Shown: one piece after another, positions 29,947 through 32,071 of the stretch
How positions within the stretch are numbered: the stretch's first letter is position 1
Layout: each line of letters begins with the position of its first letter
Assembly: GCA_020735665.1 (NCBI GenBank)
Contig: CP085928.1
Span: 496,001-560,000, forward strand
Origin: Lachnospiraceae bacterium GAM79
GTDB taxonomy: Bacteria > Bacillota > Clostridia > Lachnospirales > Lachnospiraceae
Length of the DNA stretch: 64,000 nucleotides
Direction of reading: 5' to 3'
Position numbers and translations under genes: made by a program
The notes under the pieces: generated by a model
The model's database searches: none
What the model was told of the DNA's origin: nothing
Seen by the model: the letters and a program-made list of their open reading frames with translations, nothing else

Positions 29947-29980
29947 ACAGCATAAGGTAGACGGATTTTTATCCGTATAT

Positions 29981-30202
29981 CATGTGCTTTGCACATTCTA
30001 TGCATTTCGCAAAATCAGCATTCTTGCAAGCAAATAATTTTGCGTTCATTATATCATGTGCTTCGCACATTCTATGCATTTCGCAAAATCAGCATCCTTG
30101 CGAGCAAATAATTTTGCGTTCATTATATCATGTGCTTCGCACATTCTATGCATTCCGCAAAATCAGCATTCTTGCGAGCAAATAATTTTGCGTTCATTAT
30201 AT
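29981..30202. repeat. 74-bp tandem repeat, three copies, between pflB and pflA
   Basis: Copies start at 29981, 30055 and 30129 with an exact 74-bp period and only a few base changes. Each unit can form two hairpins: ATGTGC-TTC-GCACAT, and CGCAAAAT/ATTTTGCG with a 21-nt loop. A 67-residue frame through the block is an artefact of the repeat. Confidence 0.95.
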
Positions 30203-30335
30203 CATGTATGAAAATTGTGTATCAGAGAGAAAATAGAAAGAGGCTATGAAGCTGTGAGTGGTGGAAACAGATGCATAGTCGTGGTTGTTTAATGTGTATT
30301 TGTGTAAAATAATAGAAAGAACTTAGAGGTGGAAC

Positions 30336-31181
30336 ATGCCGGAAAAGAAACAGATTTTAGGATATATTCATTCAACAGAAAGCTTTGGAGCAGTCGATGG
30401 TCCGGGAATTCGATTTGTTGTATTTTTACAGGGATGCAAGATGAGATGCAAATATTGTCATAACCCAGAGACATGGAATCTTGTAACAGATTACAGCAGA
30501 CTGTATGCTGACGATGTCAGCGATGATGAAAGAGAAGCACTTGAGAAAAAAATTGAAGAGAATACAAAACTGCTCAAAGATAAAGGTGTTAAGATCGAGG
30601 CCAGAACTCCGGAAGATCTGTTAAAGCAGGCACTTCGTTATAAGCCATACTGGAAAGGTCAGGGTGGTATCACTGTAAGCGGTGGTGAAGCATTACTTCA
30701 GATGGATTTCCTGATCGAATTTTTCAAGCTGGCAAAGGCGCAGGGTATTCATACTACGATCGATACGGCCGGAAATCCATTTACCAGAGAAGAACCATTC
30801 TTCTCAAAGTTCAATGAACTGATGAGCCTTACAGATCTTTTTCTACTTGATATCAAACAGATCCATGATGATAAGCATCGTGAATTAACAGGATTCTCAA
30901 ATCAGAATATTCTGGAGCTTGCACAGTATCTGTCCGATCAGGGCAAGCATATGTGGATCAGACATGTACTTGTTCCGGGAATTACGACAGATGAGGATGA
31001 TCTGAAGAAGACAAAAGAATTTATAGATACTCTTAAAACAGTGGATAAGGTAGAGGTACTTCCATATCATAAGCTGGGTATTCAGGAGTGGGAGAGACTT
31101 GGAATTCCTTATAAATTAGAGGGAATCGATCCTCCAACAGAGGAGCAGCAGAAGCTGGCAAAGAGCATTCTTGAAAAATAG
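30336..31181 (+). CDS. pflA: Pyruvate formate-lyase activating enzyme
   Basis: Radical SAM protein that installs the glycyl radical on PflB. The cluster motif CKMRCKYC (CX3CX2C, Cys34, 38, 41) is in the normal N-terminal position, after DGPGIRFVVFLQGC. VSGGEALLQ and the later LVPGITTDEDD match PflA. At 281 residues it is some 35 longer than E. coli PflA because of an acidic/basic insert (about residues 65-88, DDEREALEKKIEENTKLL). ATG 30336 follows GAGGTGG. The 74-bp repeats separate it from pflB. Confidence 0.95.
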   Translation: MPEKKQILGYIHSTESFGAVDGPGIRFVVFLQGCKMRCKYCHNPETWNLVTDYSRLYADDVSDDEREALEKKIEENTKLLKDKGVKIEARTPEDLLKQALRYKPYWKGQGGITVSGGEALLQMDFLIEFFKLAKAQGIHTTIDTAGNPFTREEPFFSKFNELMSLTDLFLLDIKQIHDDKHRELTGFSNQNILELAQYLSDQGKHMWIRHVLVPGITTDEDDLKKTKEFIDTLKTVDKVEVLPYHKLGIQEWERLGIPYKLEGIDPPTEEQQKLAKSILEK

Positions 31182-31191
31182 GGAATGAACA

Positions 31192-31351
31192 AAAACATCA
31201 CACGGATGGTATATATATTTTATGAAGCAGACCTGTCCGAATGTCGGTCCTTAGCGATCCGCTATTAAGCGGGAGCTTAGTACCGTTACATGAGGATAGA
31301 ACGAAAGTGTTCTGCGCAATAAAGATATATATACCGTCCGTGTGATGTTTT
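31192..31351 (+). ncRNA. Candidate structured RNA or MITE with 27-bp inverted arms
   Basis: Arms 31192-31218 and 31325-31351 pair along all 27 positions with a single wobble. The left arm begins AAAACATCACACGG and ends in TATATATAT. The ~106-nt interior can form CCGCT/AGCGG (loop ATTA) and AGAAC/GTTCT (loop GAAAGT) hairpins. No open frame is present. It could be a stable RNA or a miniature inverted-repeat element; strand is arbitrary for the latter. No known RNA family is recognised by eye. Confidence 0.5.
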
Positions 31352-31375
31352 ATGTCACGAACTTATATAATAAGA

Positions 31376-31398
31376 ATGCTCTTTGCAAGCATGTTTTT
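31376..31398 (+). terminator. Weak intrinsic terminator
   Basis: ATGCT (31376-31380) pairs with AGCAT (31388-31392), followed by GTTTTT, on the pflA side. The stem is short. Confidence 0.4.
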
Positions 31399-32071
31399 AG
31401 AGTAGGCGGAAGGTCGACTTTTGAGTGTCGATGATTCCGCCTTTTTTTAGTTTGCTGATTTCAGCGGACATGGCGGAGCGTTCTACACCGAGATAGTCTG
31501 CGAGTGCCTGACGATTGAAAGGAATAGTGAAGGTATCCGAATGATTCTGTTTTGCCTGGTCGGAGAGGTATGCCATTAATTTATCACGGGTTGTTTTCTC
31601 TGACATATAGCGTATTTTTTGATTTAACGCGAGGTTTTTCCGGGCAATTTCGTGCAGCAGATTTCGAATCAGGGTGTTGTGAAAATCACAGGAATTCGAA
31701 CAGGAGGTCAGAAGGTGGTGGCAGTCCAGAAGCAGAATATCACTGTCAGTCATGGCAAAGACGCTGATCGGTACAGTAGAAAGACCTGCGCAGGAGAAGG
31801 CTTCTGCAAACAGATCACCGGGTTGTAGATTGGTCATGACGCTTCGGTGCCCATAATAATCTTCACGGATCACCTGCGCTGTTCCGGTAAGAATGATTCC
31901 GATAAAGCGTGCCGGATCGCCCTCTACGAATATGGGATTCCCTTTTTTTATATGAATATGGTTTCCGTCCAGACATGTAAGCATAGCCGGCAGATCCTGT
32001 TCATCGATGCCGGTAAACAGGCGGCAGGCTGACAGGGTATCAATATAGGATGTAAGATCGTGTTTGTTCAT
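31397..32071 (-). CDS. Crp/Fnr family transcriptional regulator
   Basis: A 224-residue regulator with an N-terminal cyclic-nucleotide-binding-like domain (HIKKGNPIFVEGDPARF, LQPGDLFAEAF) and a C-terminal winged helix (NRQALADYLGVERSAMSAEI, residues ~184-203). No cysteine cluster of the Fnr type is evident. It is divergent from a ferredoxin-like gene, and a palindrome lies just before its start, consistent with control of itself and its neighbour. Effector unknown; heme- or redox-sensing as in HcpR is possible by analogy. Confidence 0.88.
   Translation of the reverse strand: MNKHDLTSYIDTLSACRLFTGIDEQDLPAMLTCLDGNHIHIKKGNPIFVEGDPARFIGIILTGTAQVIREDYYGHRSVMTNLQPGDLFAEAFSCAGLSTVPISVFAMTDSDILLLDCHHLLTSCSNSCDFHNTLIRNLLHEIARKNLALNQKIRYMSEKTTRDKLMAYLSDQAKQNHSDTFTIPFNRQALADYLGVERSAMSAEISKLKKGGIIDTQKSTFRLL

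Follow-up and report, generated by a model that had tools for sequence, protein, structure and literature searches.

What is the long palindrome that lies downstream of pflA in Lachnospiraceae bacterium GAM79, a structured RNA or a mobile element? The window analysed here, 64,000 nucleotides (nt) of contig CP085928.1 (GenBank assembly GCA_020735665.1, positions 496,001 to 560,000), carries between pflA and an opposite-strand gene with weak Crp/Fnr-type matches a pair of inverted arms around a seemingly structured interior. The original prediction, made from the letters alone, offered both answers, the mobile one in the form of a miniature inverted-repeat transposable element (MITE). We find that something of each stands: the sequence is multi-copy and lineage-specific, and its core has the covariation, GNRA loop and G-U excess of an RNA, but its arms are not terminal inverted repeats shared between copies. 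Because the element is both multi-copy and lineage-specific in its presence, we favour a mobile-element reading, and we consider it probable that the locus belongs to an undescribed Lachnospiraceae family of non-autonomous mobile structured elements, in which a core of about 100 nt caps a long palindromic stem private to each locus.

A genome search for further copies, as the original prediction had suggested, was productive. In the host genome, a single contig of 2.96 Mb, DNA comparison returned about 50 matches, all restricted to the interior. Core copies were delimited by a stem filter and then by a covariance model, which was built from 32 copies and whose E-values are rough; the model recovers about 94 distinct copies in this genome, mostly intergenic and without coding capacity. 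It also matches in 111 of 299 sampled Lachnospiraceae genera and, in a phylum-wide sample, in 5 of 398 genomes, four of which are in Lachnospiraceae; the sole genome with matches outside the family (G698) carries at least 8, all counts beyond the host genome being lower bounds. The element forms genome-specific subfamilies. Core identity reaches 0.95 within a genome (0.88-0.95 in some) versus approximately 0.45-0.60 between genomes, so that amplification has taken place separately in different lineages. The earlier remark that no known RNA was recognisable held, as searches for Rfam families, tRNA and tmRNA at the window locus matched no family (the best permissive Rfam match, to a plant miRNA model, scored 37.9 where 211 bits are required and is spurious), and an Rfam covariance-model search of the element in seven representative loci likewise returned none. 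A pattern search of IMG/VR found no element, the lone exact match being a chance one inside unrelated sequence, and blastn against phage and plasmid records gave no match; a phage or plasmid origin was rejected on these two results. No description of the element family was found in the literature searched by motif and by topic.

The presence of the element at orthologous positions differs between species. About nine sites were compared, with one genome per species and with mechanically called open reading frames (ORFs), and five of them are lineage-specific. In the congeneric genomes G002 and G004, five orthologous sites (L115, L112, L116, L119 and L109) have the element together with its arms in one species and neither in the other, which is the presence/absence pattern expected of a mobile element; the flanks are about 92-98% identical, save for one flank of L119 at 70-73%. 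Since the empty allele in each case is a compact intergenic region without a palindrome, the arms were not pre-existing hairpins. At L122, a site occupied in both species, only one arm base in 86 differs, and the arms therefore are not hypervariable on that time scale. In the gap between the genes for V-ATPase subunits B and D, the outer palindrome is common to both species, but the elements inside it differ, lie in opposite orientation and have unrelated inner arms, so that a single site has been re-used or its element replaced. In the pair G336/G267, one species has lost the core but retains a perfect palindrome that still has the inner ends of the element; its left arm matches exactly the reverse complement of the right arm in the other species.

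At the pflA locus the inverted arms that had been described are real. The inner pair comprises 30 nt on each side, 93% complementary, with 100 nt between them, and copy-specific arms recur family-wide, so that chance pairing is not the explanation. An outer pair of 19 nt, 95% complementary, had been overlooked: 19 nt of the 3' end of pflA recur in inverted orientation 199 nt downstream, an inverted copy that was not seen downstream of pflA in two relatives. The interior, too, is structured. The predicted RNA fold of positions 31150-31400 (-116.4 kcal/mol) has a z-score against shuffled sequences of -13.5 on the + strand, and the other strand scores -11.1. The features are as follows, with the basis of each in brackets.

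31214-31329, + strand: the whole conserved element, as matched by covariance model R1 of the family (123.5 bits)
31222-31320, + strand: conserved core, about 99 nt (alignment with 39 further cores from the same genome; covariation)
31192-31221, + strand: inner left arm, copy-specific, with an A-run at its outer end (complementarity; comparison with other copies)
31322-31351, + strand: inner right arm, copy-specific, with a T-run at its outer end, terminator-like (complementarity; A-/T-run count)
31154-31172, + strand: outer left arm, the 3' coding end of pflA (complementarity; comparison of coding-sequence ends)
31372-31390, + strand: outer right arm, repeating the 3' end of pflA in inverted orientation (complementarity; comparison of coding-sequence ends)
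31224-31226, + strand: 5' side (GAA) of the conserved 3x3 GNA/GNA internal loop (G and A columns invariant)
31316-31318, + strand: 3' side (GCA) of the same GNA/GNA internal loop (G and A columns invariant)
31241-31257, + strand: central stem, 5' side, ATGTCGGTCCTTAGCGA (helix 4, the most conserved stem)
31273-31291, + strand: central stem, 3' side, GAGCTTAGTACCGTTACAT (helix 4, covariation)
31301-31308, + strand: small hairpin AC-GAAA-GT with a GNRA tetraloop (loop and stem variation in the family)
30336-31181, + strand: pflA, the host neighbour gene outside the element (TIGR02493)

The arms are what sets each copy apart. In the host genome most copies lie within a palindrome of their own, their two flanks pairing over approximately 20-80 bp, and up to 122 nt, whereas the flanks of different copies do not pair with each other; arm scores in the listed copies are about 12-36, against a mean of 0.67 (95% 3.0) for a cross-paired control. 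Genome G003 holds near-identical cores within unrelated or only loosely similar arms, and in other genera long private arms are present in about half of the copies examined, while some copies have short ones. The exception is G230, whose copies have arms and flanks in common. Many stems in the host genome have two tiers, of which the outer can repeat a gene end in inverted orientation: at a score of at least 12, inverted copies of coding 3' ends were found for 4 of 88 neighbouring ends versus about 0.2 expected, the 19 nt of pflA among them, and the end of the gene for V-ATPase subunit B is likewise copied in inverted orientation at the G004 site. In some copies one half is replaced by a fold-back of the other (L013, L037). 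Such fold-back halves, together with arm exchange and core loss, are signatures of template switching in hairpins. Two reports describe this process as making hairpins and as homogenising or inverting inverted repeats (PMC8794818; PMC8604942). The family resembles quasipalindrome template switching in its arm homogenisation, its core inversion and its reverse-complement copies that give perfect hairpins; that process, however, has been described as one of mutation and not as accompanying a dispersed element.

Three further observations concern arms. Next to the shared arms and flanks of G230 (L162-L173; AAAACTGCGGCGGCGGAATTACAGT...), parts of the flank are repeated, as if the element were riding in a larger repeat. 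The arms of L102, 53 nt with 51 matches, make a near-perfect palindrome that may be an assembly artefact. A hairpin without a core at G000:C1:1681259-1681318 has arms typical of one subfamily and has apparently lost its core.

By three sequence criteria, covariation, the GNRA loop and the excess of G-U over A-C, the core behaves like a selected RNA. When 49 sequences drawn from many genera are aligned, standard pairs fill 95% of pair cells and 33 of 36 pairs show double changes, with a covariation of 0.82 as opposed to 0.21 in shuffled alignments and less than 0.14 with slid structures, so that compensatory change exceeds that of the controls. Among the host-genome copies, 96.5% of pair cells are standard, 29 pairs show double changes and covariation is 0.525. 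Of 150 clear copies, 149 close the small hairpin with a GNRA loop (GCAA, GAAA, GAGA, GGAA, GCGA or GGGA; about 36 other pattern matches were set aside as random), the remaining copy having GATA, and its two-pair stem swaps among AC/GT, GC/GC and GT/AC. With badly aligning pairs excluded, core pairs include 43 G-U against 12 A-C, a strand asymmetry of the kind expected for RNA. G-U pairs are rare overall, at about 3%, a share that agrees with stems also being maintained through DNA template switching. A few copies carry an inserted second module of 55 nt (GATAACTGAGACC...AGTTCGAAGTTATACAGAGTA) on either side of one core stem level, on the right in L022, L030, L038 and L042 and on the left in L019, L023, L024 and L039, the left- and right-side versions being mutual reverse complements.

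A conserved multi-copy RNA or terminator element is the main rival. It holds that the family is a functional non-coding RNA or an element regulating 3' ends (such as a bidirectional terminator that carries a protein-binding cap), selected at every copy and dispersed only incidentally. The retention of pairing among diverged host copies, the GNRA loop and the excess of G-U all speak for it, and so does genomic context, as 35 of 76 host sites (46%) lie in convergent gene gaps and most are near gene 3' ends. A left A-run and a right T-run occur together in 48 of 94 host copies, compared with 12.7 in shuffled sequences, and consequently about half of the host copies resemble bidirectional intrinsic terminators. 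However, these runs are missing in the other subfamilies examined, and in tandem gene contexts of other genera there is no orientation bias (30 sense, 26 antisense), on which ground a link between orientation and host transcription was rejected for those genera. Lineage-specific presence at five of the nine or so sites compared, between flanks that are mostly 92-98% identical, also counts against selection at every copy, and template switching can maintain stem pairing by itself. We regard this rival as possible but rather unlikely.

Improbable, in our judgement, is an element that inserts into the loop of existing terminator hairpins, the arms being host terminators. The terminator-like arms of the host genome would suit it, as would the V-ATPase site with its shared palindrome and differing contents, and long element-free terminator hairpins do occur. 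Yet the arm stems, often 20-80 bp, exceed in length the hairpins without an element that a search of 296 kb yielded (best score 19), and a pre-existing hairpin as target was rejected because the empty orthologous sites, five in all, have no palindrome; the explanation could hold only for sites that are re-used.

Several observations weigh against the mobile-element reading itself. Neither a transposase nor a reverse transcriptase was found as a partner. Across the 299 genomes there is no association with Y1 transposases (60 genomes have both; Fisher p = 0.27), and the only Y1 match in the host is a short IS200-type ORF of 125 aa with a partial domain match (L128 1474-1851). Several genera have only short arms, or none, outside the core. 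With only the two species compared, clean deletion could in principle account for the empty alleles. The inner arms show no resemblance to the empty locus with which they were compared, and the empty and occupied alleles of L112 can be read as a duplication of TTAA around TTGTG...CACAA. Two candidates fell with these results, namely a Y1/RAYT transposase as partner, rejected for its lack of co-occurrence and the partial host match, and the copying of inner arms from the target locus, which is unsupported. The L112 reading would suit a conventional MITE with fast-diverging terminal inverted repeats, a small direct duplication such as TTAA and a putative DDE transposase, but near-identical cores lack common repeat ends, and outer repeats are coding ends in inverted orientation. 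Of the target-site duplications for which the original prediction had proposed a search, no clear or consistent one was seen, the junctions being unclear apart from a possible TTAA at L112. We hold this explanation to be very improbable.

Returning to the mobile-element reading, we hypothesize that during spread the core would be selected as an RNA, or that a trans-acting factor would recognise its fold, and that the palindromic arms would be made at or after insertion. Hairpin-templated DNA synthesis, by template switching or fold-back, may then keep the arms Watson-Crick perfect and may sometimes carry an adjacent gene end to the other side; at gene 3' ends, about half of the host-genome copies would have come to resemble bidirectional intrinsic terminators. 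A more speculative extension, which we hold to be unlikely though worth stating, is a new mode of spread in which a gene-less RNA-like core gains an inverted rather than a direct duplication at insertion by fold-back copying, leaving private palindromes; it might be RNA-templated in the manner of a short interspersed nuclear element.

The family can be compared with several known systems. BOX elements of pneumococci are dispersed intergenic repeats with a conserved RNA-like structure and arms shared between copies; they are not known to be related to the present element in lineage or sequence, and their shared arms set them apart from it. Group IIC introns and other terminator-targeting elements occur at terminator-like hairpins, but here no ribozyme domains were seen, no reverse transcriptase was found, and empty sites lack a hairpin. 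With MITEs the element shares its non-autonomous, dispersed and intergenic character and its lineage-specific insertions; it differs in having no terminal inverted repeats common to copies (G230 excepted), no parent transposon and no consistent direct target duplication. Repetitive extragenic palindromic (REP) sequences are defined as palindromes of 20-40 bp with a stem of 5-13 bp and a GTAG or CGTC tag (PMC3733652). Like these, bacterial interspersed mosaic elements and REPINs, ours are short palindromic repeats that lie between genes, close to 3' ends, and occur tens to hundreds of times in a genome. Inverted head-to-head pairs are favoured in REPINs, and in the host genome 12 of 12 opposite-strand neighbour pairs are divergent, with their 5' ends facing each other (e.g. 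L008, L009, L033), as are pairs in other genera (L092, L104). The differences lie in the core of about 100 nt with 36 pairs, internal loops and a GNRA hairpin, in the lack of a shared GTAG or CGTC tag, in arms private to each copy and in the lack of association with a RAYT (TnpA-REP) transposase.

The element is among the commoner structured repeats of a dominant gut-bacterial family, yet it has no Rfam family. By comparing species one can follow in it, as a natural system, how arms are created and converted and how cores are inverted, and template switching as maker and keeper of RNA stems thereby becomes directly testable in bacteria. If the arms do arise at insertion, we know of no counterpart to this transposition signature among other bacterial elements.

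Two minor observations concern the surroundings of copies. In G698, one copy of the element has a glmS ribozyme close by (L221 1253-1409). In the window, a tandem array at 29976-30207, between pflB and pflA, consists of 3.1 copies of a 74-bp unit at 96%.
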